NCBI RefSeq assembly: GCF_003752365.1 | Contig: NZ_RJUO01000003.1 | Coordinates: forward strand, 62,001-126,000 | DNA from: Frondihabitans sp. PhB188 | GTDB taxonomy: Bacteria; Actinomycetota; Actinomycetes; Actinomycetales; Microbacteriaceae | DNA length: 64,000 nucleotides | Reading direction: 5' to 3' | Part shown: one piece after another, positions 6,483-61,423 of the stretch | How positions within the stretch are numbered: the first letter of the stretch is position 1 | Layout: each line of letters begins with the position of its first letter | The notes under the pieces: model-generated | What the model saw: only the letters and a program-made list of their open reading frames with translations | Told to the model about the DNA's origin: nothing | Databases searched by the model: none | Position numbers and translations under genes: made by a program

Positions 6483-6541
6483 GCTTCCGCGCCTCGCGGC
6501 AGTGTCGTCTGACAAGCGCCAGGGCGCAGGAACTGGCCGCC

Positions 6542-7945
6542 CTACCTCGGCGTCACCGCGATCGCACGCCAGGTCGCCGGCGTGCCCAGCGTCCGCAGCC
6601 CGACGAGGCCGCTCGTCGCCGCGCAGCCGGTGTCGGCGGCCGTCGACCTGGTCAGCACGCTGCCGGTCTTGAGCTGCGCCGTCGCCGAGATCGTGCAGCC
6701 GACGGCCTCGACGGTCACGTGGTACCAGGTGCTCGCTCCGAGAGTCGCGGGGAGCGGGTCGGTATCGAGCACCGTCGCGGTGCCCGACGCGATGCGCGTG
6801 ATGCTGAGGTTCGTCGACGACAGGTTGACGTAGTAGCCGGCGACGTTGTTGAGGCCGCTGGAGGCGCCGCTCGCCCGCACCAGGAACCCCGCGCCCGTCG
6901 TCGCGGTCGGAGCCGACGTCATCAGGACGTCGCCCGTCAGCGAGTAGTTGCCCCAGGTCGACGTGCCCGTCAGGGCCTTCGCCCCGGCTGTCGAGCTGGA
7001 GTTCGCGTAGGTCTCGTTGCCGGTATTCGTGGACCAGGTGCCGCCGTAGGTGCTCCAGCCGGACGTCGCGGCAGTCGTTGCGCCGAACTGCGACAGGTAC
7101 GGGGCGATCGCCGTCGAGGTCGTGCCGCCGGAGGTCGCTGTGATGTTGCGCCAGCTCGCACCGCTGCCGAACTCGCGCACCCCGATGGCGCCGGCGGTCG
7201 GACAGCCGGCGTCGGTGTAGGTGGCGCTCGTGACGGGCCCGGTGCCGAGGAGCTGGCCGAGGGGCTGCATCGTGTAGGTGAAGACGCAGCCGACCGCCTG
7301 GATCGTGACGTGGTACCAGGTGCCCGCCGCCACGGTCCCGGCCGTCGACTTGAGCGCCGTGTACGAGTTGTTCTCGCGGCCGAGCGTCATCGAGCCGGAC
7401 GTGTAGAGCCCCAGGTAGTAGCCGTTCAGGGTGTCGTTGCCGACGCCGGGACCCTGGACGCGGAACAGCAGGCCGGCCTGCGAGCCCGAGTTGATCTTGA
7501 CGTCGCCCTGGAGCGTGTAGTCGGTCCAGCTCGTCTGGCCGGTCACGGCCTTCGGGCCGTTGGCCGCGGACGACGACTCGGTGTAGGTCGAGCCGGAGGT
7601 GGCGGACGCCGTGGCCCAGGTGCCGGAGTAGTCGTTCCAGCCGCTGTCGCCGCCGTCCCACGTGTCGTTGTAGGGCAGGACGCCGCCGGAGGGGCTGAAG
7701 TTCGGCGCGGTGCCGACGGTGTTCGAGGTGGTGCCGACCGTCGCGGTGAAGCCCGACGACGTGCCCGGAGCGAGCTCGGCGGTGAGGGCGACCGCCGCCA
7801 GCAGGAGGACGCCGACACCGGCGACGACCCGTCGGCGACGCAGCTGCGCAGAGACCCAGGTGCGGGCGCGATGAGGAGCGGGGGCTTGCCCCGTGGCGTC
7901 CGCCGGCTGGTTCGTCCGGTCGGACGCGGTCTCCTGAACAGACAC
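6542..7945 (-). CDS. Exported surface protein with two concanavalin/LamG-like repeats
   Basis: Protein of 467 residues. A cytoplasmic basic N-terminus of about 38 residues is followed by a hydrophobic segment (about 42-60). After it comes the pattern SSGFTATVGTTSNTVGTA, which resembles the post-cleavage region of SipW/TasA-type exported proteins in actinobacteria. Residues 90-280 and 281-467 are two homologous Ser/Thr/Gly-rich beta domains. Each has a YSGTW/YGGTW strand, an 'ASTWYHVTVEAVGC' type strand and a closing WR(N/A)I strand, as in DUF1080/LamG-type lectin folds. No catalytic residues are recognisable. GTG 7945 has AGGAAAG upstream. A carbohydrate-binding or adhesive role is inferred. 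No sorting signal is seen at the C-terminus. Confidence 0.75.
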   Translation of the reverse strand: MSVQETASDRTNQPADATGQAPAPHRARTWVSAQLRRRRVVAGVGVLLLAAVALTAELAPGTSSGFTATVGTTSNTVGTAPNFSPSGGVLPYNDTWDGGDSGWNDYSGTWATASATSGSTYTESSSAANGPKAVTGQTSWTDYTLQGDVKINSGSQAGLLFRVQGPGVGNDTLNGYYLGLYTSGSMTLGRENNSYTALKSTAGTVAAGTWYHVTIQAVGCVFTYTMQPLGQLLGTGPVTSATYTDAGCPTAGAIGVREFGSGASWRNITATSGGTTSTAIAPYLSQFGATTAATSGWSTYGGTWSTNTGNETYANSSSTAGAKALTGTSTWGNYSLTGDVLMTSAPTATTGAGFLVRASGASSGLNNVAGYYVNLSSTNLSITRIASGTATVLDTDPLPATLGASTWYHVTVEAVGCTISATAQLKTGSVLTRSTAADTGCAATSGLVGLRTLGTPATWRAIAVTPR

Positions 7946-8088
7946 GCGCTCGCTCTTTCCTGGGGGTGGGTGGTGATGCCAGACCAGGTGGTGCAGCGCC
8001 GAGTCTACCGGGACAGGTGTCGAGCGCCTCAGCCCTGCGCGGGTGTCAGACCGGACCGCCTCGGGGAGCGCCGGTTAGTCTCGACGGC

Positions 8089-9588: not shown

Positions 9589-9982
9589 GCCGCGCCGCTC
9601 GGGCGGCTGCGCCGCGGGGTGAGGCGGATGCGCTGCCGCTCGTGAGATCTGTCCTGCGGACCGTCGCACCGGCGTGTGCGTCGTGCTGAAGGGGCGGCTC
9701 GCCGCCGCGGGGCTGCGTCGGGCGGCGGGCGGCGCCCTCGGGATCGGCACGAGCCCGCCGGCGCGCAGGCGGGGCTGAGCCGGAACGGCGGGGTGAGCGC
9801 GGCGGGGTGGGCGCGGCGGGGGTGAGCGCGGCGGCTCGGGGCGCGGCGGTGGGGCCGGAGTTCCTGCGCCCGGCGCCCTCGGGATCGGCACGAGCCCGCC
9901 GGCGCGCAGGAGGGGACGAGCCGAAACGGCGGGGGGAGGCCGGGGCACACAGGGCCAGGGCCGAGCCGATGCGGCCGCCCCG
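9589..9982. repeat. Repeat-rich intergenic region with 39-bp direct repeats
   Basis: A 394-bp gap between convergent genes without a credible gene. A near-identical segment beginning GGCGCCCTCGGGATCGG and ending GCCGGCGCGCAGG occurs at about 9731-9769 and 9872-9910 (spacing 141 bp). Between the copies lie short GAGCGCGGCGGGGTG-type repeats (9790-9845). A GTTCCTGCGCC word at 9860-9870 sits directly before the second copy. The block may act as a terminator region; no single clean stem-loop with a U-tract is present. Confidence 0.7.
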
Positions 9983-11524: not shown

Positions 11525-11622
11525 GCCGATTCGGCACGGTGCCGCCTAAACGGGCCGGTCGCCCCGCCGAATCGGCGAAGCCCCACCGAATCTTCGGCGG
11601 GAGCCAGCCGATTCGGCGGGGC
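11525..11622. repeat. Inverted-repeat elements, GCCGATTCGGC family, copies 2-3
   Basis: The gap 11482-11679 holds three exact 11-bp palindromes (11525-11535, 11566-11576, 11607-11617). They form two larger inverted pairs, for example GCCCCACCGAATC (11580-11592) with GATTCGGCGGGGC (11610-11622), one mismatch. It lies just upstream of marR and downstream of the ABC permease gene, both read leftward. Confidence 0.8.
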
Positions 11623-17086: not shown

Positions 17087-17135
17087 GCGGCGGCGGGTGC
17101 GGGTGGGAGCGCAAGTTCCTGCGCGGTCGGCTCTT

Positions 17136-18047
17136 CTAACGCGGGGCGAACACCCGCAGGGCCCCGGGTACCACGCCGACGTCGACGGGGAGCGGGCCGA
17201 TCCGCTCGCCGTCGCCGTACGCGATGACGCCGGGCGCATCGATGCGCACCCGCTCGGCACGGCTCAGCCGCACGCGCGGATCGTCGCCGTGCGTCCCCTT
17301 CGAGACCCGGGGGAACAGGCGCAGGAACTGCGTTCGAGTCAGACGGTCCACGACGAGAAGATCGAGCCGGCCGTCGTCGATCCTCGCGTCGGACAGCAGG
17401 GTGATCCCGCCGCCGACGGAGCGCGCGTTGCCCACCGACACCAGCGTGCCGGCCACCGACCGGGTCTCGCCGTCGACGGTGACCTCGTACTCGACCTGCC
17501 GGAGCCGCACCAGCTCGAGCGCGAGCGCCACGTCGTAGCGCAGGCGGCCGCGCGGGCGCCGGATCCGGTTGGCGGTCTCGTTGACGAACGCGTCGAAGCC
17601 GGCCGACACTCCCCCGGCGACCCAGGTCTCGCCGCCACCGTGGGCGACGCGGAGCGCGTCGACCACCCGCGGCTCGCCGTCGAGCAGCCCGACGAGCTGG
17701 TCGAGCGCCGCCGCCGGGTCGTCGTAGGGGATGCCGAGGGCGCGCGCGAAGTCGTTGCCCGTGCCGGCGGGAACGATCCCCAGCGGCGTGCCGGTCTCGG
17801 CGACGAGCCCCACGCCGAGGCTGACCATGCCGTCGCCGCCGACGACGACCAGGGCGTCGGCTCCCGCCGCCAGCTCGGCCCGGCACGCGGTGAGCAGCTC
17901 GGCGTGCGACCCCCGCTGGAGCGGCACGACGTCGTGGCCCGCGGCGCCCAGCCGGTCGACGACGGCGGGGCCGACCGGGCGATGGCGGCCGAAGGAGGCG
18001 CTCGGGTTGATGGCGACGGCGATCCTGCGCGGCGTCGGTGTCGTCAT
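17136..18047 (-). CDS. Diacylglycerol kinase-family lipid kinase (DagK/YegS-like)
   Basis: Cytosolic or membrane-associated lipid kinase of 303 residues. The catalytic N-domain has the nucleotide motif VVGGDGMVS (70-73 is GGDG) and PAGTGNDFARALG near 93-105. The C-terminal beta domain ends GALRVFAPR. It may phosphorylate diacylglycerol or a related lipid or sphingoid base. ATG 18047 is chosen because homology starts within ten residues; upstream sequence belongs to the repeat array. One GTTCCTGCGCC word (reverse) lies inside the gene at 17338-17348, encoding QFLRL. Confidence 0.92.
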   Translation of the reverse strand: MTTPTPRRIAVAINPSASFGRHRPVGPAVVDRLGAAGHDVVPLQRGSHAELLTACRAELAAGADALVVVGGDGMVSLGVGLVAETGTPLGIVPAGTGNDFARALGIPYDDPAAALDQLVGLLDGEPRVVDALRVAHGGGETWVAGGVSAGFDAFVNETANRIRRPRGRLRYDVALALELVRLRQVEYEVTVDGETRSVAGTLVSVGNARSVGGGITLLSDARIDDGRLDLLVVDRLTRTQFLRLFPRVSKGTHGDDPRVRLSRAERVRIDAPGVIAYGDGERIGPLPVDVGVVPGALRVFAPR

Positions 18048-18106: not shown

Positions 18107-18518
18107 CGATCCCGCCGATTCGGCTCGACACCGCCGGACCGGGCCGGGCACCCCGCCGATTCGGCCCGACACCGCCGGACCGGGCCGGGCACCCCGCCGA
18201 TCCGGCTCAGCCCCGCCGTCGCGCCGGAGGGAGTGTGCCGATTCGGCGGGGGCGGTCCCGGCACCGCCGGATCGGCCCGACACCGCCGATTCGGCTCGAC
18301 ACCGCCGAACCGGGCCGGGCACCCCGCCGACCCGGCTCAGCCCCGCCGTCGCGCCGGAGGGAGCCTGCCGATTCGGCGGGGGCGGCCCCGGCACCGCCGG
18401 GTCGGCCCGACACCGCCGATTCGGCTCGACACCGCCGGACCGGGGCGGGCACCCCGCCGATCCGGCTCAGCCCCGCCGTCGCGCCGGAGGGAGCCTGCCG
18501 ATTCGGCGGGGGGGGGGG
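18107..18518. repeat. 130-bp tandem repeat array, GCCGATTCGGC family
   Basis: Three-plus copies of a 130-bp unit fill most of the 554-bp gap 18048-18601. The unit boundary TGCCGATTCGGCGGGG recurs at 18236, 18366 and 18496, an exact 130-bp period with few substitutions. The first copy carries an internal 41-bp duplication. Seven exact GCCGATTCGGC palindromes occur (18114, 18155, 18237, 18285, 18367, 18415, 18497). The array ends in a run of G (about 18504-18517). All frames over it give low-complexity Pro/Arg peptides without ribosome sites, so I treat it as noncoding. Confidence 0.92.
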
Positions 18519-20976: not shown

Positions 20977-22500
20977 TCAGATGTGCGGCACGAACGACTG
21001 CCAGACCCGGCGGCGCTCGCCCCGCGGGTCGAACTCGACGCGGTCGGCCTTGTCGATGATGAGCGTCCGGCGCCGGAACGGGTCGTACGACGGCCAGTCG
21101 GCCACGTCGCCGGTCGTCACGAACTCGAGCCACCGGCGGCGCATCCGCCGGGCCGCGAGCTGGAACGCGCGTCGCCCGCCGAGCGCCGACATGGCGAAGC
21201 CGAACGCCGAGTCCATCCGGTCGAAGAGCGCGTAGAGGTCGAGCCCGTGGAACGCGTCGACGCCGGCCGCCCTCAGGATGCGCGGCGCGATGTCGAACCG
21301 GTAGAAGAACACCTTCGCGAACCGGGCGTGCCGCTCGGCGACCTTCACCGTCGGGAACCAGAACGAGAAGTCGCCGCCGAAGTCGAGCGCCGCGGGCCGC
21401 GACGGCAGCCCCGGGTACTGAGCGGTGATCGCCTTCCGGGCCTTCTTCTTCGTGTTGGCGAAGATCGACCGGATGCGCAGCGGCGTCGTCGCCAGGATGT
21501 CGCGGCGCCCCGTGAACACGGAGCCCTCGCGGTCGTTGGTGCCGATGATCAGCGGCACCCGGTGGGCGCGCCCCGCCTTGAACGCATCGAGCGGGCGCTC
21601 CGGCAGGATCTCGCCGTCGATCACGGGCGACAGGAAGATCGACCCGGGCACGTCGTCGGGCGTCCGGAGGAAGAGCCTCGCCGTCGCGCGCACGATCGCC
21701 TGCGTCGACGCGCTCTGCAGCAGGGCCGGCGCGTCTTCGTACGAGGTCGACTCCAGGTCGTCGTCGCGCACGACGCGGCTGAGGATCTCGAGGAAGTCGC
21801 CCGCCCACCTCTCGGTCACCTCGGGCTCGTAGATGGCGTTGGCCGGCGACGACTGCGCGATCGCGGCGCGGAACAGGCCCTCCGCCCGGGGCACGGCCAT
21901 CAGCGTCGTCACGGCGTTCGCCCCCGCCGACTCGCCGCACACGGTGACCTGCTCGGGGTCGCCGCCGAACGCCGCGATGTTGTCGCGCACCCACTCGAGC
22001 GCGTGCAGCTGGTCGCGCAGGCCCAGGTTCGACTCGATCGGGCGCTCGGGCGTCGACCAGGCCGAGAAGTCGACGTAGCCGAGCCCTCCGAGGCGGTAGT
22101 TGAACGACACGTAGACGATGCCGCCCTCGCGCACCAGCGCCTCGCCCTGCCGCGGGAACTCGCGCGACGACCCCACGGCGTACGCCCCGCCGTGGATGTA
22201 GACCATGACCGGCAGGCCGGCGCCGGGTCGCGAGCCGCCTGGAGCGACGACGTTGATCGTGAGGCAGTCCTCGCTCTGAGGCGTCGTGGCGTCGATGCCG
22301 ACGAACTGCCCGCGATCCTGCGGTGCTGCCGGGCCGAAGTGCCGTGCGGCGCGGACGCCGCTCCAGGGCGCAGGAACCCGCGGCGCCCTGAACCGCAACT
22401 CGCCCACGGGCGGCTCGGCGTACGGGATGCCCCGCCACGCGAGCACGTCGCGCTCCGCCACGCCGCGGACCGCCCCCGAGGTCGTCGTCCGCTGAATCAC
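20977..22500 (-). CDS. Type B carboxylesterase/lipase
   Basis: Alpha/beta-hydrolase of the carboxylesterase type B family, 507 residues, the usual size. It has the oxyanion segment YIHGGAY near 103-109, SEDCL, the nucleophile elbow CGESAGA near 190, an acid residue in the FTGRRDI region or nearby, and the His region FHGLDLY. It lacks a signal peptide and so acts in the cytosol on ester substrates. GTG 22500 begins IQRTTTSGAVRG, typical of the family. It diverges from the Na+/H+ antiporter gene. A GTTCCTGCGCC word (reverse) at 22367-22377 encodes VPAPW. Confidence 0.92.
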   Translation of the reverse strand: MIQRTTTSGAVRGVAERDVLAWRGIPYAEPPVGELRFRAPRVPAPWSGVRAARHFGPAAPQDRGQFVGIDATTPQSEDCLTINVVAPGGSRPGAGLPVMVYIHGGAYAVGSSREFPRQGEALVREGGIVYVSFNYRLGGLGYVDFSAWSTPERPIESNLGLRDQLHALEWVRDNIAAFGGDPEQVTVCGESAGANAVTTLMAVPRAEGLFRAAIAQSSPANAIYEPEVTERWAGDFLEILSRVVRDDDLESTSYEDAPALLQSASTQAIVRATARLFLRTPDDVPGSIFLSPVIDGEILPERPLDAFKAGRAHRVPLIIGTNDREGSVFTGRRDILATTPLRIRSIFANTKKKARKAITAQYPGLPSRPAALDFGGDFSFWFPTVKVAERHARFAKVFFYRFDIAPRILRAAGVDAFHGLDLYALFDRMDSAFGFAMSALGGRRAFQLAARRMRRRWLEFVTTGDVADWPSYDPFRRRTLIIDKADRVEFDPRGERRRVWQSFVPHI

Positions 22501-25791: not shown

Positions 25792-26127
25792 ATGGATTCC
25801 ACGGACGCACCCGAGTTCTCGGGGGCCGGCCGCAGCCTGGAGGTGCTGCGCGCTGAGGCCCACGACGAGCTCCGCACGCTCATCGAGCTGCGCTGCCGCG
25901 CTGGCGAAGACCCGTGGGAGGTCATCCCGGAGCTGCCGACGGTCGACGAGCAGGTCGTGATCTCGCTGAGGGCGGACGCGTTCGGGCACGCCGGGGCGGG
26001 GGCCAGCTCGGGCATGAGCCTGGGCGGCGAGCTGGAGTTCCTGCGCCGGATCGCCCTGTGGCACCCCGAGCTCTCGCGGGCCGTCTGGCTGCTGATGGGC
26101 AAGCTGGAAGACGCGGGCCACCTCTAG
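25792..26127 (+). CDS. Conserved hypothetical soluble protein
   Basis: Acidic helical protein of 111 residues with no recognised domain or membrane segment. The middle has EAHDELRTLIELRCRAGEDPW and the C-terminus a Leu/Trp-rich helix (LSRAVWLLMGKLEDAG). ATG 25792 begins DSTDAPEFSG. It sits 23 bp before the oligopeptidase gene in the same direction and is probably co-transcribed. A GTTCCTGCGCC word at 26037-26047 encodes EFLRRI. Confidence 0.7.
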   Translation: MDSTDAPEFSGAGRSLEVLRAEAHDELRTLIELRCRAGEDPWEVIPELPTVDEQVVISLRADAFGHAGAGASSGMSLGGELEFLRRIALWHPELSRAVWLLMGKLEDAGHL

Positions 26128-32210: not shown

Positions 32211-32247
32211 GGGTCGGCGGCGGGCACGCAGTTCCTGCGCCCGGGCT

Positions 32248-40496: not shown

Positions 40497-41750
40497 TCAG
40501 GTGTCGGAGCCCACGGTAGGCCCGTCTCCTGGCAGCGGCTCGGATCGGCGCGGCCAGAGCGCGCCCTCGGCGGCGTCGACCAGCTGGAGCGCCTTGCGGC
40601 GGCCGGTGTCGGTGCCGAGGGTGGCTTGTCCGCCGGCGTGCGCCAGCAGCTGGGAGGCGACCGTCGGCGCGAGCCGGTCGGCGATGTCGGGGTGCCGGTC
40701 GGTCCACTCGTCCGACACGGCGTCGGCGATGCGCTCGCAGGCGCGGGCCTGCTCCTCGTCGCCGTTGCCGCGGTGCCACTGCGCCGTGACGACGAGGTGG
40801 GCGACGAGCGAGCCGGCGTCGCGCGCGGCGTGCCCGACGCCGGCGGTGTCGATGTCGAGCAGGCCGGTGACGTGGCCCGGCTGGTCGGGATCGACGAAGA
40901 GCTGCTCGAGGTGGAGGTCGCCGTGGACGACCCGCATCTCGTCGGACGACCAGGTCGAGGTGCGCGCCTCGATCTCGTCGTAGACGGCGTCGATCCCCGA
41001 TGCCCGGTCGGGCAGCGACCCGGTGAGGCTGCGGCGGTGCCACGAGCCGTTGTCGAGGGCGTCGGCCTGGGCCGTCTGGGTGAGGTGCACGCGCGCGACG
41101 GTCTCGGAGAGCCCGACCACGGTGTCGACGAACGCACGTCCGGCCGCGAGGTCGATCACGCGGGTTCCGGCGGGTACGCCGTCGACGCGGCGCAGGATCA
41201 GGAGGCCGTCCGGCTGCGTCGCGACCACCGTCGGCACAGGCAGCCCCGCCTCCGCGAAGGCCGCGTGCAGCGCGGCGATGGGCTCGGCGCGGCTGGGTCG
41301 CACCACCTTCAGGAAGAGCGTGGCCTCGGCGCTCTCGAGCTTGATGACGGCGCGCTTGCCGGGGCGGTAGGCGGCCACGCTGAGGGTCGGATCGCTGACG
41401 GCGAGGCCGATGCGAGCCAGGAGCTCGACGACGCGCTCGGGGTAGGTGACTGCGGCGAGCGCCGGCAGCGCCGGGTCGGCCGGGTAGGCCCAGACGCGCA
41501 CGAGCTGACCGCTGCCCGGGTCGGCGACGACGTTCCCGCCGGCGGCGCGCGACGCCTCGACCGAGGACGGGTCGGTGTCGACGAACGTCAGGACGGTCGA
41601 GGAGGCACCCGCGGCGTCGATCGTGTCGACCTCGTATCCGAAGAGGTAGCCGCCGCCCGACGGCTCGACGGAGTGCGGCCGGAACGACACGACTCGGACC
41701 CCGCTGTCCGCGAACGCTGCGGGGAGGATCTCTCCTGAGTTGGGCCACAC
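40497..41750 (-). CDS. APH-family phosphotransferase (maltokinase-like)
   Basis: Protein of 417 residues with a C-terminal aminoglycoside-phosphotransferase kinase fold. The lysine region is YRPGKRAVIKLESAEATLF near 160, the catalytic loop VVHGDLHLEQLFV near 274, and the metal motif LLDIDTAGVG near 292. The N-terminal 150 residues are a beta-rich cap without a named family, with conserved FGYEVDTID. It phosphorylates an unknown small molecule. It is first in a two-gene operon with the Rieske/FAD oxidoreductase, suggesting a shared metabolite. GTG 41750 diverges from the FUSC gene. Confidence 0.83.
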   Translation of the reverse strand: MWPNSGEILPAAFADSGVRVVSFRPHSVEPSGGGYLFGYEVDTIDAAGASSTVLTFVDTDPSSVEASRAAGGNVVADPGSGQLVRVWAYPADPALPALAAVTYPERVVELLARIGLAVSDPTLSVAAYRPGKRAVIKLESAEATLFLKVVRPSRAEPIAALHAAFAEAGLPVPTVVATQPDGLLILRRVDGVPAGTRVIDLAAGRAFVDTVVGLSETVARVHLTQTAQADALDNGSWHRRSLTGSLPDRASGIDAVYDEIEARTSTWSSDEMRVVHGDLHLEQLFVDPDQPGHVTGLLDIDTAGVGHAARDAGSLVAHLVVTAQWHRGNGDEEQARACERIADAVSDEWTDRHPDIADRLAPTVASQLLAHAGGQATLGTDTGRRKALQLVDAAEGALWPRRSEPLPGDGPTVGSDT

Positions 41751-41798: not shown

Positions 41799-42896
41799 GT
41801 GCGCCGAAAGCGCGGCCCGTACCCTGGAGACCGTGCACGTGCCCCGGTCCCGCTGATCTCCCGCCTTCGGCAGCCCTCGCGCCTGCCCCTGCTCCAGGTG
41901 GTCAAGACGTCGATCGCGGTCGTCGTCGCCTGGGTCCTGAGCTTCCTGGCGCTCGGCCAGCCGCTGCCGATCTTCGGCGCGATCGCCGCCCTCCTGGTGG
42001 TGCAGCCGAGCGTCAACCAGTCGTTCGCCCGCGGCCTCGAGCGCAGCGCGGGTGTCGTGATGGGCGTGGGCCTCGCCTACGTCGTCGGGGCCGTCCTCGG
42101 CCACGAGCACACCTGGGTGGTGCTGGTCGCCGTCGTGCTGGCGCTGCTGCTGGCCTGGCTCGTGAAGCTGACGCCGACGTCGAGCACTCAGGTGCCGATC
42201 TCGGCGATGCTCGTGCTGTCGGTGGGGGTCGTCACGCCCGGCTATGCGGTCGACCGCATCATCGAGACGGTGATCGGGGCGGTCGTGGCGCTGCTGGTCA
42301 ACGCCCTGATCGTCCCGCCGGTGCTCCTCGGGCCGGCGCACCTCTCCGTCGGCCGGCTGGCTCGCGACCTCGGCACGGCCCTCGACGACCTGGCGGGCTC
42401 CCTCGAGCAGGCGACGCCGACGGCCGACCTCGACGCGATGCTCCTGCGGGCGCGCGAGCTCCGCGTGCTCCGCGACCAGGCCGCGTCGGCCGTCAAGACG
42501 GGCGAGGAGTCGCTCACCCTCAACCCTCGCGCCAGCCGGCAGCGCCGGGTGCTCGAGGCCGACCGAGCCCTGCTCGCCCCGCTCTCGAATCTGGTGCACC
42601 GCGTCGTCGCGATGACCCGCACCCTCCGCGACAACTACGACCCGGCGCTCGTCGACGACTCGGTGGTCGCCGGAATCGCCGAGGAGCTCCGTCGCGCCGC
42701 CCACGACGTGCGCCTGCTCGTGCACGACCGCGAGGAGACCGCTGCGCGGGGCGAGGGAGCAGGAACGGGCTCCCCCGACGACCTCCCTGCCCTGACCGCG
42801 CCCCTGCAGGTCGTCCGCCCCGACCCCGACCACTGGATCCTGGTGGGGTCGCTTCTGGAGGACCTCCGCCGCGTGCGCGAGGAGCTGCGACAGTAG
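41799..42896 (+). CDS. FUSC-family aromatic-acid exporter-like membrane protein
   Basis: Membrane protein of 365 residues. An N-terminal block of five or six TMs (about 32-180) contains LLQVVKTSIAVVVAW, PIFGAIAALLVVQPSVNQS and a GVGLAYVVGAVLG helix. A long cytosolic helical region with many charged residues follows to the end. This is the half-size FUSC (YgaE/aromatic acid exporter) arrangement, probably acting as an oligomer to export organic acids. GTG 41799 is used; no better start exists. It diverges from the phosphotransferase gene. A GTTCCTGCGCC word follows its stop (42903-42913). Confidence 0.85.
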   Translation: MRRKRGPYPGDRARAPVPLISRLRQPSRLPLLQVVKTSIAVVVAWVLSFLALGQPLPIFGAIAALLVVQPSVNQSFARGLERSAGVVMGVGLAYVVGAVLGHEHTWVVLVAVVLALLLAWLVKLTPTSSTQVPISAMLVLSVGVVTPGYAVDRIIETVIGAVVALLVNALIVPPVLLGPAHLSVGRLARDLGTALDDLAGSLEQATPTADLDAMLLRARELRVLRDQAASAVKTGEESLTLNPRASRQRRVLEADRALLAPLSNLVHRVVAMTRTLRDNYDPALVDDSVVAGIAEELRRAAHDVRLLVHDREETAARGEGAGTGSPDDLPALTAPLQVVRPDPDHWILVGSLLEDLRRVREELRQ

Positions 42897-42925
42897 CGGC
42901 GAGTTCCTGCGCCCGCCTCCGGGGT

Positions 42926-43645
42926 TCAGCCCTGGAGCGCCGCCAGGATCGCCGCCCGGCCGGCCGGGTGGCCGAGGATGCGGAAGTGGCCGTCGATCGG
43001 CACGCTGACGTTGCGCGCCCCCTCGAGGCGGCTGCCGTCGGGCACGTGGCCGTCGAATCGCGCGAACACCGACGTGATTCGCGCGTTGACGTCGACGAGG
43101 CCGCTGAGGCGAACCAGACCGGCATCGTCGGTGCGGAACGCGCGGAGCGTCTTGCCGGGAGCGAACCGTGCCATGCGCGACCCTGAGAACGGGCTGTTGA
43201 CGGCGACCATGCGGTCGATGCGAGCGCTGGCGTCGGTGTCGAGCATCATGGACTTTCCGACGAGGCCGCCCTTGCTGTGGGCCAGGACGACGACGCCGCG
43301 GAGGTCGTTGGCGTCGAGCACGCGCTGCGCGAGCTCGGCGGTCTCGGCGATCGGCCGTACGTTGTGCGCCATCCCGGGAACGACCACGACCGGGTGGCCC
43401 TGCTCGTTGAGGCGGTCGGCGAACCAGCGCAGCGTGCGCCACGACTCGTAGACGCCGGGCAGCAGCAGCACGGGCGCGAGGCCGCCCTCGCGGTACCGGG
43501 CAGGCACCGACGCGTTGCCGAACAGGCTCCGCGAGTGCGTTCGCACCGCGTAGGCGTAGTCGGCGGGCAGGAACTCGAGGTAGTGCAGGACGCTCCCCCG
43601 AGAGGTTCGCGCCCGCACGATCTTGCGCAGATCAGGCAGGGTCAC
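42926..43645 (-). CDS. Alpha/beta hydrolase, lipase-like
   Basis: Soluble alpha/beta-hydrolase of 239 residues. The core strand VLLLPGVYESWRTL near 59 is followed by the nucleophile elbow VVLAHSKGGLVG, Ser near 124. The acid and base residues are plausibly in FDGHVPDGSRLEG and the GHFRILGHP segment near 220. No signal peptide is seen. It may be an esterase or acyltransferase of unknown substrate. GTG 43645 is used. It lies 9 bp after the stop of the small upstream gene, so the two are co-transcribed. Confidence 0.85.
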   Translation of the reverse strand: MTLPDLRKIVRARTSRGSVLHYLEFLPADYAYAVRTHSRSLFGNASVPARYREGGLAPVLLLPGVYESWRTLRWFADRLNEQGHPVVVVPGMAHNVRPIAETAELAQRVLDANDLRGVVVLAHSKGGLVGKSMMLDTDASARIDRMVAVNSPFSGSRMARFAPGKTLRAFRTDDAGLVRLSGLVDVNARITSVFARFDGHVPDGSRLEGARNVSVPIDGHFRILGHPAGRAAILAALQG

Positions 43646-46019: not shown

Positions 46020-46877
46020 TCAGCCGAAGAGGCGGGGCAGCACGCCCGGTCGGTCGAGCTCGACGGCGAACAGACCGCCGGAGAGCGGAGACTCCTGGAG
46101 CTGCTGCTCCGTCGCGTTCTCACGTGCCGACCCCACGTAGAGCGTCGTCAGATCAGCGCCGCCGATCGTGATGCCGGTCACGTTCGGCGCGGGCAGGGCG
46201 ATCGTCTCGAGCAGCTCGCCTGCGGCCGACAGGTGCACCACCTCGCCGTCGCCGTAGATCGCGCTCCAGAACTCCCCCAGCGAGTCGCGGACGAGCCCGT
46301 CGTGCGTGCGCCCGGTCGAGAACGGCACCAGCTCGCCGAGAGTGCCGTCGGCGTCGTACGAGGCCTGGTAGATCGTCTGCACGGCCGTGTCGGTCACCCA
46401 CATCATGCTGCCGTCGTCGGAGAACTCGATTCCGTTGGTCGTGCCGAAGCCGCCGGCGAGCACCGTGACCTCGCCAGACGGAGTGATCCGGTAGAGGCCC
46501 GCGTCCGGGTCGTCACGGGTCGCATCCATGCCGCCGACGACGAAGTTGCCGAACGGGTCGCACTTGCCCTCGTTGAAGCGGATGCCGGCGTGCGAGTGCT
46601 CGACGCGCACGAGGTCGCGTTCGTAGACGCCGGCGTCGTCGGTGAGCACGACGCGATCCTGGAGAGCCACGACGAGGCCGCCACCGGAGCGCCTCTGGAA
46701 CGAGGCCAGCGGGGGCGGCAGCACCGCCTCGAGTTCCTGCGCCCCGTCCGGGCTCGCCCGGTGCAGCGTGCCGGCGGTGATGTCGCACCAGAGAATCTGC
46801 TGGGCGTCGGCGTCCCACACGGGGCTCTCGATGAGGATGGCGCGGGCGTCGACGATGAGGCGCGGTTCGGAGGTCAC
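46020..46877 (-). CDS. SMP-30/gluconolactonase family protein
   Basis: Six-bladed beta-propeller lactonase-like protein of 285 residues. It has the opening ESPVWDADAQQILWCDI (metal-ligand Glu near 15), the FNEGKCDPFGNFVVGGMD metal region near 97, TTNGIEFSDDGSMMWVTD (Asn ligand) near 145, and THDGLVRDSLGEFW (Asp ligand) near 188. It likely hydrolyses sugar lactones in the cytosol. GTG 46877 is chosen; upstream in-frame sequence is not conserved-looking. It diverges from the GH15 gene, hinting at shared carbohydrate metabolism. A GTTCCTGCGCC word (46733-46743) encodes AQEL. Confidence 0.9.
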   Translation of the reverse strand: MTSEPRLIVDARAILIESPVWDADAQQILWCDITAGTLHRASPDGAQELEAVLPPPLASFQRRSGGGLVVALQDRVVLTDDAGVYERDLVRVEHSHAGIRFNEGKCDPFGNFVVGGMDATRDDPDAGLYRITPSGEVTVLAGGFGTTNGIEFSDDGSMMWVTDTAVQTIYQASYDADGTLGELVPFSTGRTHDGLVRDSLGEFWSAIYGDGEVVHLSAAGELLETIALPAPNVTGITIGGADLTTLYVGSARENATEQQLQESPLSGGLFAVELDRPGVLPRLFG

Positions 46878-48856: not shown

Positions 48857-49585
48857 ATGCCGCTCCGCATCGTGAACGTGAACGTCAAGGCCCGTGACGA
48901 CCAGGCACTCGGCCGCTTCTGGGCCGACGCGCTCGGCTGGAGCACCGACAGCGAGGGCCCGGGCGTCACGAGCGCCTACCCCGACGGCCTCGAGTGGCCC
49001 GACGCGTCGGCCGTGTGCATCGACGCGGTCACCGTGCCCGACCCCGAGACCGTGCACTACCGGGTGCGCATCGAGCTGGCCGCCGAATCGCTCGAGCACC
49101 GCGCCGCCCTGATCGAGCGCCTGCTCGCGCTCGGGGCGACCCGCGTCGACGCGGGGTTCGCCGACCCCGAGGGCAATGTCTTCCGGGTGCAGGATCCCCG
49201 CCCCGACGAGAGCGCGACCGGGCCGATCGGGGCGATCGTGCTCGAGTGCGACCACCCGCGCAGCCAGGCGGCGTTCTGGGCGGCGGCGACCGACTGGGTC
49301 GCCGTCGAGCGGCCCGAGCAGCGAGACCAGCACGACGGCCCGGCGCGGTTGCGGTCGGCGGTCGGGGTCGGGCCGTTCGTGGAGTTCGTCGAGGCGCCCG
49401 GAGTTCCTGCGCCCAGCCGGTTTCACATCGACCTGAAGCCGTACGCCGCCGACGACCAGTCGGCCGAGGTCTCACGGCTGCACTCCCTCGGGGCCGTCGA
49501 CACCGACCTCGGGCAGGGCGACTCGGCGTGGAAGTGCCTCGCCGACCCCGAGGGCAACGACTTCTGCGTGCTGGCGGCGGGCTAG
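48857..49585 (+). CDS. VOC-family protein with two tandem glyoxalase-like modules
   Basis: Protein of 242 residues. Module one (about 4-118) runs from IVNVNVKARDDQALGRFWADALGW to FADPEGNVFRVQDPRP. Module two (about 125-240) runs from GAIVLECDHPRSQAAFWAAAT to LADPEGNDFCVLAAG. Both end in the DPEGN(V/D)F strand of the glyoxalase_6 type. The function is unknown. ATG 48857 follows GH15 by 24 bp, so it is probably co-transcribed. Its stop codon TAG shares the palindrome CTAG with the stop of the convergent ku gene. A GTTCCTGCGCC word (49403-49413) encodes VPAP. Confidence 0.87.
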   Translation: MPLRIVNVNVKARDDQALGRFWADALGWSTDSEGPGVTSAYPDGLEWPDASAVCIDAVTVPDPETVHYRVRIELAAESLEHRAALIERLLALGATRVDAGFADPEGNVFRVQDPRPDESATGPIGAIVLECDHPRSQAAFWAAATDWVAVERPEQRDQHDGPARLRSAVGVGPFVEFVEAPGVPAPSRFHIDLKPYAADDQSAEVSRLHSLGAVDTDLGQGDSAWKCLADPEGNDFCVLAAG

Positions 49586-51506: not shown

Positions 51507-53957
51507 GTGGCTGCCGGCGACCGCGTCACCGTCGAGGGGCACGTGCTGCGCCTCACGCACCTCGACAAGGTGCTGTATCCCTCGACGGGCACCACCAAGG
51601 GCGACGTGCTCGCCTACTACGCGGGGATCGCCGAGCACCTGATCGCGCACGCCGAGGGTCGGCCAGCTACCCGCAAGCGCTGGGTGAACGGCACCGGCGA
51701 GGAGCCCTTCTTCGAGAAGAACCTCCCCGAGTCGGCCCCCGGGTGGATCCCCCGCCACACCATCGAGCACAAGGGCCACGACAACGTCTACCCGATGGTG
51801 AACGACCTGGCGACGCTCACCTGGCTCGGCCAGCAGGCAGCCCTCGAGATCCACGTGCCGCAGTGGCGCTTCGGCCCGCGCGGTGCCCAGCGCAACCCCG
51901 ACCGGCTCGTGCTCGACCTCGACCCGGGCGACGGCGTCGGCCTGCCCGAGTGCGTGTTCGTGGCGCAGGAACTCCGGCCCATCCTGCGCGGCATGGGCCT
52001 CGACCCGATGCCCGTGACGAGCGGCAGCAAGGGAATCCATCTCTACGCGGCGCTCGACGGTTCGCAGCCGCCCGACGTCGTCAGCGAGGTGGCACACGAG
52101 CTGGCCCGCGCCCTCGAGGCCGATCACCCCGACCTGGTGCTCAGCTCGATGGGCAAGGCCGACCGGCGCGGCAAGGTGTTTCTCGACTGGTCGCAGAACA
52201 ACGGCAGCAAGACGACGGTCGCCCCGTACTCGCTGCGCGGACGCGAGCGGCCGACGGTCGCGGCACCCCGCACCTGGCGCGAGCTGGCGTCGAAGTCGCT
52301 GCGCCAGCTCGAGATCGGCGACGTGCTGACGGCCGTGAAGCGGCGCGGCGACCCGCTGGCGGGCATGTCGGCGGGCGCTCCCGTGCCCGCGGACGAGGAG
52401 GACGGCGATGCGGCCGAGGACCGCCTGACGGCGTACCGCTCGAAGCGGGATGCCTCGAAGACGCGGGAGCCCGTTCCTGCGACCGCTCCCGTCTCGACCG
52501 ACGGCCGCAGCTTCGTGATCCAGGAGCACCACGCGCGGCGCCTGCACTGGGACTTCCGGCTCGAGCACGACGGCGTGCTGGTGAGCTGGGCGCTGCCCAA
52601 GGGCGAGCCCGCCGACGTGAAGCACAATCGCCTCGCCGTGCAGACCGAAGACCACCCGCTCGAGTACGGCACCTTCGAGGGCACCATCGCGAAGGGCGAG
52701 TACGGGGCCGGCACGGTGTCGATCTGGGACTCCGGCGAGTACGAGCTCGAGAAGTGGCGCGACGGCAAGGAGGTCATCGCGGTGCTGCACGGCGAGCAGC
52801 GGGGCACGAGGCGCGTCGCGCTGATCCACACGGGCGAGCAGAACTGGCTGATCCACCGTATGAAAGACACGGCGGTCGACGACCACGGGGCGCAGGAACC
52901 CGACCACCCGCGCGCGCGCCCGAAGCCGTCGTCGAAGCCCGCCCCGTCGCACCGTGCCGCCGGGCCGCCCGCCGCCCCGATGCTCGCCACCGCCGGCACG
53001 GCCGCCGACATCGGGGGGCCCGACGAGTGGGCCTACGAGCTGAAGTGGGACGGCCTCCGCGCCACGGTCGTCGTGCAGGACGGCTCTGTCACCATCGCCA
53101 GCCGCAACGGCCACGACCTCACGCCGTCGTACCCGGAGTTCGCCGCGCTGGCCGAGCGGCTGACCGGAGCCGACGACGCCGTGCTCGACGGCGAGATCGT
53201 CGCCGTCGACCCGTCGGGGCGGCCCGACTTCGGGCTCCTGCAGACGCGGATGAAGCTGACCCGGCCGCGCGACGTGGAGCGCGTCTCGAAGTCGGCGCCC
53301 GTGCGACTGCTGCTGTTCGACGTGACCGCGGTCGACGGTCGCTCGCTCGTGAAGGAGCAGTACGACGAACGCCGAGCGACCCTCGAGGGCCTCGTCGACA
53401 CCGACCGCACCATCGACGTGCCGCCGGCATTCGAGGGCGACCTCGACGGCGCCGTCGCCTTCTCGAAGTCGCTGCGCCTCGAGGGAGTCGTGGCCAAGCG
53501 ACGCGACAGCACCTACACGGCCGGACGCCGCAGCCGCGCCTGGATCAAGATCAAGCACCACGCCACCCAGGAGGTCGTGATCGCCGGCTGGCGCCCGGGA
53601 GCGGGCCGTCGATCCGGCGGCGTGGGATCTCTGCTGGTCGGCATCCCCGGTCCGGACGGCCTCCGGTACGCGGGCCGCGTCGGAACCGGGTTCCGCGACT
53701 CCGACCTCGACGACCTGCAGGAGCGCCTGGGGCGTCTCGCCCGGAAGACCTCGCCGCTCGTCGACGTCCCCGCCGCCGACTCCCGCGACGCGCACTGGGT
53801 GACCCCGTCGCTCGTCGGCGAGGTCGAGTTCGCGGAATGGACGTCGACGGGCCGCCTCCGACAGCCGTCGTGGAGGGGGTTCCGGCCCGACAAAGACCCG
53901 GTCGACGTCGTCCTGGAGAAGCCGGAACGCCCGCCCTCGGGCCTCCACGAGGGCTAG
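51507..53957 (+). CDS. ligD: Multifunctional ATP-dependent DNA ligase LigD (POL-PE-LIG)
   Basis: End-joining ligase of 816 residues, domain order polymerase-phosphoesterase-ligase as in mycobacteria. The POL domain (about 1-285) has LVLDLDPGDG with the metal Asp pair near 134 and KADRRGKVFLDW near 220. The PE domain (about 330-470) has EHHARRLHWDFRLEHDG and SWALPKG. The LIG domain (about 490-815) has motif I ELKWDGLRA (nucleophile Lys), DGEIVAVD, EGVVAKRRDS and WIKIKH. All catalytic motifs are intact. GTG 51507 is the first start. Both interdomain linkers hold GTTCCTGCG-type words (52473, 52889). Confidence 0.96.
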   Translation: MAAGDRVTVEGHVLRLTHLDKVLYPSTGTTKGDVLAYYAGIAEHLIAHAEGRPATRKRWVNGTGEEPFFEKNLPESAPGWIPRHTIEHKGHDNVYPMVNDLATLTWLGQQAALEIHVPQWRFGPRGAQRNPDRLVLDLDPGDGVGLPECVFVAQELRPILRGMGLDPMPVTSGSKGIHLYAALDGSQPPDVVSEVAHELARALEADHPDLVLSSMGKADRRGKVFLDWSQNNGSKTTVAPYSLRGRERPTVAAPRTWRELASKSLRQLEIGDVLTAVKRRGDPLAGMSAGAPVPADEEDGDAAEDRLTAYRSKRDASKTREPVPATAPVSTDGRSFVIQEHHARRLHWDFRLEHDGVLVSWALPKGEPADVKHNRLAVQTEDHPLEYGTFEGTIAKGEYGAGTVSIWDSGEYELEKWRDGKEVIAVLHGEQRGTRRVALIHTGEQNWLIHRMKDTAVDDHGAQEPDHPRARPKPSSKPAPSHRAAGPPAAPMLATAGTAADIGGPDEWAYELKWDGLRATVVVQDGSVTIASRNGHDLTPSYPEFAALAERLTGADDAVLDGEIVAVDPSGRPDFGLLQTRMKLTRPRDVERVSKSAPVRLLLFDVTAVDGRSLVKEQYDERRATLEGLVDTDRTIDVPPAFEGDLDGAVAFSKSLRLEGVVAKRRDSTYTAGRRSRAWIKIKHHATQEVVIAGWRPGAGRRSGGVGSLLVGIPGPDGLRYAGRVGTGFRDSDLDDLQERLGRLARKTSPLVDVPAADSRDAHWVTPSLVGEVEFAEWTSTGRLRQPSWRGFRPDKDPVDVVLEKPERPPSGLHEG

Positions 53958-55864: not shown

Positions 55865-56350
55865 TCAGGGCGTGTAGACGAACGTGCCCGTCGCCGAGCC
55901 GTTCAGCGGGTGCGGGAATCGCTCCCCCACCTCGACCCAGCCCTGCGAGCGGTACAGCCCGACCGCCACGGCGTTCTCGACGAGCACGTGCAGCACCGCC
56001 TCGTCGTACCCGGCGGACGCGATGCGCTCGTGCACGGCGCGGAGCAGGCGCCCACCCAGGCCGGCCCCCTGGCGACCGGGGGCCACCGCGAAGAGCGAGA
56101 GGTAGGCGGCGGCGGGCGGGTCGGCGGGGCGGCCGGTTCCTGCGCCCGTGACCAGGCTGAAGGCCGCGATCTCGGCGAGCTCGTCGCGCAGAACCACCCA
56201 GGCGACGCGCGCGAGGGCGAACTTGCCGCGGCAGCGCTCGGCCGTGCCCTCGACGGGCGGATGGCCGTCGCGCACCTCGAGGGCGTGCAGCCACAGCGCG
56301 ACGCAGGCCTCGAGATCGTCGTCCGAGGCCTCGGCTGTCACGATGCTCAC
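55865..56350 (-). CDS. GNAT-family N-acetyltransferase
   Basis: Cytosolic acetyl-CoA-dependent acyltransferase of 161 residues. Motif A, the acetyl-CoA pyrophosphate loop, is LFAVAPGRQGAGLGGRLLRAV near 85-105. The later strand LHVLVENAVAVGLYRSQGW near 120-138 is the usual motif B. The substrate is unknown. GTG 56350 begins SIVTAEASDDDLEAC, typical of the first strand and helix. It lies 46 bp downstream of the tetR gene in the same direction. Two GTTCCTGCGCC words bracket it: one inside (56136-56146) and one just before its start (56362-56372). Confidence 0.9.
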   Translation of the reverse strand: MSIVTAEASDDDLEACVALWLHALEVRDGHPPVEGTAERCRGKFALARVAWVVLRDELAEIAAFSLVTGAGTGRPADPPAAAYLSLFAVAPGRQGAGLGGRLLRAVHERIASAGYDEAVLHVLVENAVAVGLYRSQGWVEVGERFPHPLNGSATGTFVYTP

Positions 56351-56396
56351 CCGTCCATCATGGCGCAGGAACTGCCCCGCCCCGCCGAGCTCGGCC

Positions 56397-57119
56397 TCAG
56401 GAGGCGGGTGCGCCGGCGCGGAGCCCCACCGCCGGCAGGATGACGCTGTCGACGAGCGAGACGAGGAACTCGCGGTCGACGGGCTTGCGCTGCACGAGCG
56501 TGCGGTAGGCGGCCATCGACGGCGAGATCAGCGAGAGCGCTTCGACGTCGCAGTCGGCCGAGATCTCGCCGCGATCGATCGCGCGCTGGAAGAGCACGCG
56601 GTTGATCTTCGCTCGGGGCTCGACCATCGCGGCGTTGACGGCGTCGGACATCTCGGGGCTCCGCGCGATGAGCGACACGATGCCCGCCATGACTTTGAGC
56701 TTCTTGTCGGCGTCGTCGATCGAATGCGGGCGGATGAGGGCGAGGAGGTCGCCGCGCAGCGTTCCCGTGTCGGGCAGGGTCTCCGGAGCGACGCCGCGCT
56801 TCATGCAGGCGATGGCCTCGATGACGAGCTCGCTCTTGGAGCCCCAGCGGCGGTAGACCGTCGCCTTGCCGGCCTTGGCGCGGGCCGCCACCATCTCCAT
56901 GGTCATGCCGTCGTAGCCCTCCTCGGCAAGGACGTCGATGGCCGCGCTGAGGATCTCGGGGTCGCGGGTGTGGTCGCGCTTGCGGCCCAGCTTGGCGGGC
57001 TCGGGGCTGCCGGGCTCGGGGCTGCCGGGCTCGGTGCTTGAACGCTCGGGGCTGGCGCTGGTCGCTGGCATGTCGGTGGTCGCTGGCATGGTTCTCTCGT
57101 CGGGATCGACTCGCGTCAT
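56397..57119 (-). CDS. TetR/AcrR-family transcriptional regulator
   Basis: Repressor of 240 residues. The first 45 residues are a disordered leader with repeated (G)SPEP. The HTH (about 52-98) reads ILSAAIDVLAEEGYDGMTMEMVA then AKAGKATVYRRWGSKSELV. The C-terminal ligand/dimer domain is of the TetR_C_16-like kind with RSPEMSDAVNAAMVEPR. ATG 57119 is used; internal ATGs at residues 11 and 17 are alternatives. It diverges from a DHA2 MFS exporter gene. Its own promoter (TTGAGT-17-TATAAT) overlaps an inverted repeat, so autoregulation and control of the exporter are likely. Confidence 0.93.
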   Translation of the reverse strand: MTRVDPDERTMPATTDMPATSASPERSSTEPGSPEPGSPEPAKLGRKRDHTRDPEILSAAIDVLAEEGYDGMTMEMVAARAKAGKATVYRRWGSKSELVIEAIACMKRGVAPETLPDTGTLRGDLLALIRPHSIDDADKKLKVMAGIVSLIARSPEMSDAVNAAMVEPRAKINRVLFQRAIDRGEISADCDVEALSLISPSMAAYRTLVQRKPVDREFLVSLVDSVILPAVGLRAGAPAS

Positions 57120-58769: not shown

Positions 58770-58776
58770 CCGCGCC

Positions 58777-59558: not shown

Positions 59559-59590
59559 CAAGCCGCGCCCGCCCGGCGCCAGCGCCGGCG

Positions 59591-60727
59591 CTACACCCCG
59601 ACGGGCTCGTAGATCTCGCTCAGGACACGGTCGGCCAGCCCGAGCCCGGTCGTCATGCCGATGCCCGTCGTCACGGAGACGACGTGCACGCCATCGAGAG
59701 GCTCCTCGACCAGGAACTCCTCCGGCGCCACCGCGTACACGCCCTGCCAGCGCTCCACGACCTCGAGCGTCGACGCCGGCTGGCCGAAGAAGTCGGCCGT
59801 CCCGCGCAGCAGGGCGTCGAACGACCCCTCCGACTGGAACGGCGCGATCGCGTCGTCGCGGTAGTGCGTGTCGCCGACGATGACCGTTCCGTCGGGCAGC
59901 TGCGTGTACATCTGGTTGATGTCGAGGGCGCGGAACTCGGGGTCGCCGGCCCATAGCCGCTCGCGCACGGCCTCGAGCGAGGGCGCCGTGGCGAAACCCG
60001 AGTAGCGCAGCATCGACCAGCCGGTGAGCACGGGCCCGGCGAGCGGCGCGGTCAGGCCGGGGATCCGCACGCGCATCATGTCGAGCCCGCAGCGGCGCAC
60101 GCCGTACGCGGCCGACAGGTCGGGGAAGAGCTGGTCGACGTCGTAGTTGACGGCGACGACGATCTGGTCGGCGCCGATCCTGCCCCGGGTGGTGTGCAGT
60201 CGACCCGAGCGGATGGTCCGCACCGCGGTGGCGAACGCGAAGGTCACGCCGCGCGACTCGAGGTAGGCGACGATCTGGCCGGCCGCCTCGCGCGGGTTCA
60301 GCTGCAGGTCGTCGAGCAGATGCGCTCCCCCGACGGCGGACGCCGCACCGGTGAGCCGGGCCGTGTCGTCGGCGCCGATCATCTCGACCGACGTGGGGCG
60401 CCGGGCGGCGAACTCCGACAGCGCGCGCAGCTCGTCGTCGGCGCGGGCCGCCACGTACCCGCCGCCGTCGCGCATCCACAGCCCCGCCTCGTCGCGGAGG
60501 CGCAGCCACAGCTGGCGACTGCGGTCGGCGTAGACCTGAGCGGCCCCGGACTGCACGCTGATGCACGCGTGGCCGAAGTTCCTGATCGTCGATCCGTTGG
60601 GCCTGCTGGTCCGGTCGACGACGTGCACGCTGAGCCCCCGGTCGACCGCCGCCAGGGCGTGGCCGAGCCCGACGATGCCGGCGCCGACGATCGCCACGTC
60701 GACGATCCGGTCGAAATCCTTTGCCAT
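59591..60727 (-). CDS. TIGR03364-type FAD-dependent oxidoreductase (DAO family)
   Basis: Flavoprotein of 378 residues resembling the TIGR03364 group of D-amino-acid-oxidase-like enzymes. FAD motif VAIVGAGIVGLGHALAAVDRG lies near 11. It is followed by the group's characteristic RTSRPNGSTIRNFGHACISVQSG. The C-terminal part has VVSVTTGIGMTTGLGLADRVL near 355. In other bacteria this group often accompanies 2-aminoethylphosphonate genes, but no phosphonate genes are visible here, so the substrate is open. ATG 60727 diverges from the PAP2 gene. Its 3' end lies 32 bp from the hairpin array. Confidence 0.87.
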   Translation of the reverse strand: MAKDFDRIVDVAIVGAGIVGLGHALAAVDRGLSVHVVDRTSRPNGSTIRNFGHACISVQSGAAQVYADRSRQLWLRLRDEAGLWMRDGGGYVAARADDELRALSEFAARRPTSVEMIGADDTARLTGAASAVGGAHLLDDLQLNPREAAGQIVAYLESRGVTFAFATAVRTIRSGRLHTTRGRIGADQIVVAVNYDVDQLFPDLSAAYGVRRCGLDMMRVRIPGLTAPLAGPVLTGWSMLRYSGFATAPSLEAVRERLWAGDPEFRALDINQMYTQLPDGTVIVGDTHYRDDAIAPFQSEGSFDALLRGTADFFGQPASTLEVVERWQGVYAVAPEEFLVEEPLDGVHVVSVTTGIGMTTGLGLADRVLSEIYEPVGV

Positions 60728-60760
60728 GCGCAGAGGCTAGGTCGGCCCGGTTGACTGCTG

Positions 60761-61423
60761 GTGAACACATCCGCATGGTTGAGTGGGCGCGTGCCCCTTC
60801 GACCTCCGTCTTCGTCGCGAACCCCCAGCATCCTGCCCCCGAGAATCCTGGCTCTCGACCGCAGGATCGGGCGGCGCGTCAACGGGGCCGGCACCGGCCC
60901 CGCCCTCGACCGCGTGCTCCTCGGCCTCTCGACCGCGGCCAACAACGGCCTCCTCTGGTACGGGGTCGCCGGCGCCCTCGCGCTGACCGGCCCGACCGGG
61001 CGCCGCGCGGCCGTGCGCGGCCTGCTCTCGCTCGGCGGGTCGAGCGCCGTCGCCAACCTCGTCGCCAAGCCGCTGTTCGGCGGGCACCGCCCCGTCGCCG
61101 CAGACATCCCCGTGGCGCGGCAGCTGAAGGTCTTCCCGCAGTCGGCGTCGTTCCCGTCGGGCCACACGGCGAGCGCCTTCGCGTTCGCCACCGGCGTCGC
61201 CCTCGAGAGCCCCGGCAGGGCGGCGCTGATCGCGCCGATCGCGGTCGGCGTCGCGTACTCGCGACTGCACGTCGGCGCGCACTGGGTGTCGGACGTGGTC
61301 GGGGGCGCCGTGATCGGGTCGGGTGTGGCGGTGGCGGGGCAGTTCCTGCGCCCGGAGCGCCTTGTCGCGCGGCTGGCCCGACGGGCGAAGCGGGCAGCGG
61401 CGGCAGGGCGGCTGGCACACTAG
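60761..61423 (+). CDS. PAP2-family phosphatase
   Basis: Membrane phosphatase of up to 220 residues acting on lipid phosphates such as undecaprenyl pyrophosphate or phosphatidic acid. The tripartite PAP2 motif is complete: KPLFGGHRP (KX6RP) near 103, FPSGHTASA near 129, and SRLHVGAHWVSDVVGG near 166. There are about four or five hydrophobic segments. The start is uncertain: GTG 60761 gives the longest form, GTG 60791 a form ten residues shorter. It diverges from the FAD oxidoreductase and is followed after 4 bp by the MaoC gene. A GTTCCTGCGCC word (61342-61352) encodes QFLRP. Confidence 0.87.
   Translation: MNTSAWLSGRVPLRPPSSSRTPSILPPRILALDRRIGRRVNGAGTGPALDRVLLGLSTAANNGLLWYGVAGALALTGPTGRRAAVRGLLSLGGSSAVANLVAKPLFGGHRPVAADIPVARQLKVFPQSASFPSGHTASAFAFATGVALESPGRAALIAPIAVGVAYSRLHVGAHWVSDVVGGAVIGSGVAVAGQFLRPERLVARLARRAKRAAAAGRLAH

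Follow-up and report, generated by a model that had tools for sequence, protein, structure and literature searches.

What maintains an 11-base word, GTTCCTGCGCC, at high density and in both orientations along a stretch of the genome of Frondihabitans sp. PhB188, a member of the Microbacteriaceae? The window considered here, a stretch of 64,000 bases (contig C3, 62001-126000), contains 14 exact copies, eight forward and six reverse, as a preliminary description of this DNA had stated; dinucleotide shuffles yielded a mean of 0.10 copies and a maximum of 2, in line with the expectation of about 0.1 quoted there, and a recount likewise found A in front of 11 of the 14. We consider that A-GTTCCTGCGCC is probably a DNA uptake sequence (DUS) belonging to a system with dialects, because the excess of the word, its bias toward gaps and gene ends, its apparent origin by substitution, its hairpin pairs, the dialects of related species and the presence of competence genes all agree with such a role.

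Genome-wide excess of the word

The genome comprises 3,793,925 bases in 10 contigs, of which C10 consists of N only and was dropped; stretches L185 and L186 were also left out of the analysis. GTTCCTGCGCC occurs 518 times (247 forward and 271 reverse), or about once per 7.3 kb, and 391 of these copies carry the preceding A. The count is 0 to 25 per genome across 397 other genomes of the family, and 6 to 15 in each of the six other species of the genus. The whole-genome count and family comparison suggested in the preliminary description therefore reveal an excess that extends throughout the genome rather than being confined to the window and that, in the sampled genomes, is restricted to one species.

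In a genome this rich in GC, such a word might conceivably arise from codon usage or from mutation bias, as TTC CTG CGC and ATC CTG CGC are ordinary codons. The codon-aware null used here was constructed with a simple codon-model gene caller, by shuffling synonymous codons across genes and generating the gaps from a Markov chain (15 shuffles). In 780,043 sampled bases of the genome, the window included, 117 copies were found vs. 4.7 expected, so that the excess also survives the codon-preserving comparison that had been proposed. Sense copies number 16, 2, and 17 in the three frames (expected 0.0, 0.1, and 3.2), antisense copies 14, 2, and 24 (expected 0.2, 0.1, and 0.8), and copies in gaps 42 (expected 0.3). 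The commonest chance form is indeed TTC-CTG-CGC in sense frame 2, to which the expectation of 3.2 belongs. However, since the excess in sense, antisense, and gaps goes beyond what a codon-preserving null produces, codon use is ruled out as its source, and as sister species of the same GC content lack the GTTCCTGCGCC excess, we regard a by-product of codon usage or mutation bias as highly improbable.

Orientation, gene context, and hairpin pairs

The distribution of the word was assessed in the 780,043-base sample together with stretches L168 and L175 (122 copies in all). Orientation is balanced, with 64 forward and 58 reverse copies and no polarity; neighboring copies have opposite orientations in 60 cases vs. 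the same orientation in 31, orientation is mixed inside 20-kb stretches, and reverse copies are present beyond 567 kb of contig C1 (L015-L017), the contigs not having been ordered to the origin in this comparison. Chi sites and FtsK-orienting polar sequences (KOPS) are likewise short, frequent, genome-wide words that are read by a protein, and they are strand-biased. GTTCCTGCGCC resembles them in the former respects and differs in having no strand bias, and both Chi and KOPS fit poorly because they need polarity. For a Chi-like site, at which a recombination helicase-nuclease recognizes the word on one strand and turns from degrading DNA to repairing it, the spacing of one copy per 7.3 kb would be suitable, yet polarity is lacking both for this word and for the words of the sister species described below. 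The enrichment in gaps and at convergent gene ends and the inverted pairs also argue against a Chi-like function, and a dialect that changes inside a single genus would be atypical of Chi; we consider this explanation quite unlikely.

In stretches of at least 66% GC, the 118 copies divide into 74 within genes and 44 in gaps, the gaps making up 11.9% of the bases, an approximately three-fold enrichment (four copies in stretch L010 were excluded from this count). Among gaps of up to 600 bases, the density per kb is highest between convergent genes (1.62), followed by tandem (0.73) and divergent (0.32) arrangements. Seven of the eight stretches below 66% GC (145,732 bases) have no copies, which is only suggestive of scarcity in acquired DNA, as the GC cut was set post hoc and serves as a proxy for acquisition.

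Inverted pairs of the word, with arms 4 to 34 bases apart, occur 10 times genome-wide vs. approximately 0.55 as estimated from the counts. Four of the 10 were folded as RNA, with energies of -49.0, -42.5, -52.4, and -30.1 kcal/mol, and in the first and third of these the stems extend unbroken past GTTCCTGCGCC. Such hairpins, together with the convergent-gap bias, are what would be expected of a transcription terminator that selection had multiplied and that had no role in uptake. Against this, there are only 10 pairs vs. 518 copies, most copies lie within genes, and the hairpins in L012 and L013, the two whose 3′ flanks were inspected, are not followed by a T run, which makes a purely terminator-based origin very unlikely.

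Origin of the copies and conservation of the core

In site-by-species alignments to the sister species, none of 42 had six or more bases of the PhB188 sequence facing a gap, although a looser first alignment had some gap near GTTCCTGCGCC in 30 of 48 cases. Identity at the word was lower than at random places, both in genes (0.66 vs. 0.75) and in gaps (0.60 vs. 0.72). Because no insertions appear in the 42 alignments, the copies look to have arisen by substitution and not by insertion.

One-mismatch forms of the core GTTCCTG are rare, with the exception of T to A at the second base (19 vs. 1.9 expected); weaker excesses were seen for T to C at the second base (10 vs. 6.8) and T to G at the sixth (7 vs. 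2.4), and the final three bases of the word are free to vary. As a decaying repeat should vary at all positions, the scarcity of core variants looks like active upkeep of a recognized core. The best form of the word is A-GTTCCTGCGCC, with the core GTTCCTGC, and the flanks of 61 copies had a slight consensus, with a preceding [CG][CG]A and a following C. A repeat that is or once was mobile, of the repetitive extragenic palindromic (REP) or miniature inverted-repeat transposable element (MITE) type, would account for an abundance that is so sudden and species-specific. Such an element is extremely improbable here, as the flanks have little consensus beyond the bases just given, no insertion was found (the gaps of the looser alignment notwithstanding) and decay variants are scarce across most of the core.

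The co-location of dialects was also considered as evidence and set aside: of 126 aligned cases, 10 have a sister-species word of the form [ACG]TCCTGC at the PhB188 site, vs. 1.35 in a control of distant alignment columns, but homology alone may suffice to produce this, as estimated at the observed identity.

Dialects in the genus and in other genera

Samples of 180-200 kb from each of the six other species of the genus were searched for eight-letter words with the same codon-aware null. The word GATCCTGC leads in four of them, G201 (166 vs. 16.5), G285 (144 vs. 16.4), G087 (117 vs. 15.4), and G246 (87 vs. 12.7), whereas the leading words are AGGATCCG (110 vs. 10.4) and CAGGATCC (88 vs. 8.6) in G004 and GCAGGAGC (117 vs. 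27.1) and CATCCTGC (75 vs. 15.0) in G150. The excess of the sister-species words extends over several reading frames, both strands, and the gaps. They are mostly of the ATCCTGC type, with TCCTGC as the shared core in most of the six and GGATCC in G004. When words were picked by a fixed threshold, with no core preset and with low-GC stretches of the PhB188 genome excluded, 21 of 22 contained the core TCCTG or GATCC or its complement, the remaining word being a local repeat of G150. The PhB188 genome is itself also enriched for GATCCTGC (158 vs. 34.0). Since nearly all of the threshold-picked words fall into one group and PhB188 is enriched for the sister-species word as well, one motif common to the genus has drifted, and in the species of the window the variable position is now T and the word has become longer. 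In G150, the strongest long words apart from its dialect come from a repeat around AGACTCCACGA, which lies between genes as called by the gene caller (L113, L115, L117, L118, and others).

The near-invariant core and genome-wide spread of GTTCCTGCGCC do suggest that a protein reads the word, and it could be the site of a chromosome-organizing protein (KOPS/FtsK, or a nucleoid or segregation protein) that has no link to uptake. We think this unlikely, as KOPS would require the polarity that is absent, GTTCCTGCGCC is not palindromic, the positions of the copies differ from those in the sister species, and a species-specific jump is hard to reconcile with a housekeeping protein.

Words in excess on both strands were also found in other genera of the family: GAGGCATCC in G392 (L179-L181; 20 vs. 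~0.8), CGCATCCG in G302 (L182-L184; 51 vs. ~6.8), GCATCCGGC in G238 (L176-L178; 15 vs. ~1.5), and CGCGCCTCC in G110 (L205-L206; 22 vs. ~3.3), where the expectations are sums over classes and the simple gene caller covered only 55% of G238. Of two genomes lacking PilB, the sample of G014 had no word of comparable strength, and G017, in which the gene caller gave no genes, contributes no evidence.

Natural-transformation genes and pilus operon

All seven species of the genus have a match to ComEC, which adjoins comEA in PhB188, as well as PilB-like and PilT-like proteins and a third secretion ATPase, called Tad-type by its neighbors in L175. A type IV pilus operon was called in all seven, consisting of pilB, pilT, pilC, pilD, pilM, one to three major pilins, two minor pilins, and a PilX-like gene, although several of these calls are short in G285 (L172). 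Pfam supports PilB, PilT, PilC, PilD, PilA, and minor pilin 2 of PhB188 and has no match for its minor pilin 1 as called nor for PilX; names outside the supported set were assigned by gene order and by eye. A six-frame search placed the N_methyl motif above the cut-off at three places in the PhB188 operon, one of which heads minor pilin 1.

The two minor pilins and the PilX-like protein of PhB188 (L168 13509-17355) are far more diverged from the sister species than the remainder of the operon, being 31-57% identical to their counterparts vs. 92-95% for PilB, and G150 is the closest species for two of the three. The comparison suggests that the minor pilin/PilX cassette of this species may have been replaced.

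Of 120 genomes from the wider family, 118 have ComEC and 62 have PilB at E 1e-60. The excess of the related word GCATCCG, scored over a reversed control that is not codon-aware, had a median of 4.7 in the 62 genomes with PilB vs. 3.1 in the 58 without it (p 0.013).

A proposed uptake sequence

We propose that GTTCCTGCGCC would be bound by a DNA receptor at the cell surface, part of the apparatus for natural transformation, so that fragments from the same species would be preferentially taken up and recombined. A substitution that made or improved a copy would then be spread by transformation (molecular drive), until the genome filled with copies, mainly where these do the least harm, namely between genes and after gene ends. 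The cells would accordingly be competent and GTTCCTGCGCC would raise uptake, and the receptor may be a pilin, located either at the tip of the type IV pilus or in a Tad-type pilus. The preliminary description had offered DNA uptake and Chi/KOPS as alternatives, and it is the former that the tested sequence features favor, the absence of polarity speaking against the latter.

Several observations weigh against this proposal. The low-GC stretch L010 carries four copies of the word, and GATCCTGC, unlike GTTCCTGCGCC, has no clear enrichment in gaps in three of the four species that it leads, with 20 of 166 copies in gaps in G201, 21 of 144 in G285, and 13 of 117 in G087, where gaps make up 10.3, 15.5, and 13.4% of the bases, respectively. 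In G246, the ComEC match is divided over two adjacent frames (L045, L046), owing either to an error in sequencing or to disruption of the gene, and DprA was found in six of the seven species, the exception being G201, whose word is strong. The strong divergence of the minor pilins and PilX would suit a receptor that is changing, yet it shows no correlation with dialect across the seven species: Mantel comparisons of dialect (low-GC PhB188 stretches again excluded) with the divergence of PilA, the two minor pilins, and PilX were all non-significant, as were those with PilB and PilC. For minor pilin 2, a structural model (mean predicted local distance difference test score, pLDDT, 76) matched no PDB entry at E 0.001; that of minor pilin 1 was of insufficient quality (pLDDT 57) and was excluded from the comparison. 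Lastly, the link between GCATCCG and PilB across the family did not hold up, as among genomes above 2.4 Mb it is gone (4.6 vs. 3.9, 57 vs. 36 genomes, p 0.40). Either pili of another kind do this work, or the word seen across the family is of a different nature.

Copies in the window

The copies in the window are listed in Table 1. The start given as 17338 in the preliminary description was wrong and is corrected here to 17318, and the simple gene caller places six of the 14 copies between genes, vs. five in the preliminary description. The window also has 15 one-mismatch copies, among which are the near-matches previously noted at 17115, 52473, and 62805.

Table 1. Copies of GTTCCTGCGCC in the window, with strand and gene context.
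Feature	Position	Strand	Context
Exact copy	6523..6533	-	between convergent genes 5301-6482 (+) and 6542-7945 (-)
Exact copy	9860..9870	+	between genes
Exact copy	17318..17328	-	sense, gene 17136-18047
Exact copy	22367..22377	-	sense, gene 20977-22500
Exact copy	26037..26047	+	between genes
Exact copy	32231..32241	+	between genes, immediately beyond stop of gene 32248-34005 (-)
Exact copy	42903..42913	+	between convergent genes 41898-42896 (+) and 42926-43645 (-)
Exact copy	46733..46743	+	antisense, gene 46020-46877
Exact copy	49403..49413	+	sense, gene 48857-49585
Exact copy	51962..51972	-	antisense, gene 51507-53957
Exact copy	52889..52899	-	antisense, gene 51507-53957
Exact copy	56136..56146	+	antisense, gene 55865-56350
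Exact copy	56362..56372	-	between genes 55865-56350 (-) and 56397-57089 (-)
Exact copy	61342..61352	+	sense, gene 60914-61423
One-mismatch copy GTTCCTGCGCG	17115..17125	+	
One-mismatch copy GATCCTGCGCC (resembles sister-species words)	4047..4057	+	
Second copy of GATCCTGCGCC	41189..41199	-	

A different repeat, the 11-base near-palindrome GCCGAATCGGC or its complement, has 11 copies in the window, in clusters at 11525-11617 and 18114-18507 with spacings of approximately 41, 48, and 82 bases and a single copy at 1232, and five copies in the rest of the PhB188 sample. Being clustered in the window and rare in the remaining sample, it appears to be a REP-type repeat of local extent, in contrast to GTTCCTGCGCC, which is dispersed. 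Long homopolymer runs of C or G near contig ends (L018 57-119; L025 1-94 and 3331-3418) are probably assembly artefacts.

Relation to known systems and implications

According to PMC12616744, DNA-uptake-sequence systems have so far been described only in Neisseriaceae and Pasteurellaceae, both of them Gram-negative. The Neisseriaceae DUS, as presented in PMC3630211, PMC6370729, and PMC12616744, is likewise a short enriched word that occurs in both orientations, with a bias toward gaps, terminator-like inverted pairs, and species dialects around a core, in bacteria that have type IV pili and ComEC; its receptor is the minor pilin ComP. The word described here differs in being unrelated to it, in having a Gram-positive actinobacterial host, in being known from sequence features, and in its 518 exact copies vs. 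2,245-5,918 for the Neisseriaceae dialect words (PMC3630211). No relative of ComP was found, no profile search having been aimed at it. The uptake signal sequence (USS) of Pasteurellaceae also evolves by point mutation and not by insertion and forms pairs in terminators, although it is a different word in a different phylum, and one for which uptake bias has been measured, whereas the present case consists of sequence features (PMC7811141, PMC1852404, PMC12616744). The USS is described as scarce in coding and newly acquired DNA (PMC7811141).

An actinobacterial competence model is Micrococcus luteus, in which natural transformation depends on Flp/Tad pili (PMC4322843). PhB188 shares with this actinobacterium ComEA, ComEC, and a Tad-type ATPase, and its genus differs in that it also has a type IV pilus operon that is complete. 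Neither "uptake sequence" nor "DUS" is a term used in the main text of that paper (PMC4322843). The titles and abstract openings listed from an open-access library, preprints and subscription journals being outside the scope, contained no report of uptake sequences in Actinobacteria, and no paper on a genome repeat, by title, was among the matches listed there for GTTCCTGCGCC or a form of it.

A broader proposal is that the family has an uptake code of its own, with A-GTTCCTGCGCC as the dialect of PhB188, ATCCTGC-type words as those of its sister species and GGCATCCG, CGAGGCATCC, GACGCATCC, GCATCCGGC, or CGCGCCTCC as those of other genera. Whether this would constitute a third, independently evolved code for self-recognition in uptake, the first in Gram-positive bacteria and present in dialects throughout the Microbacteriaceae, is in our judgement evenly balanced. 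Under this broader proposal, shifts of dialect would be fertility barriers between species. An actinobacterial case as such would show that uptake codes evolve repeatedly, and can do so in cells without an outer membrane, and it would offer a system, in a bacterium not known to be a pathogen, in which dialects diverge within one genus, where word swaps between sister species would make the determinants of uptake specificity testable. It would also account for the channelling of gene exchange in a family that is large and environmental.

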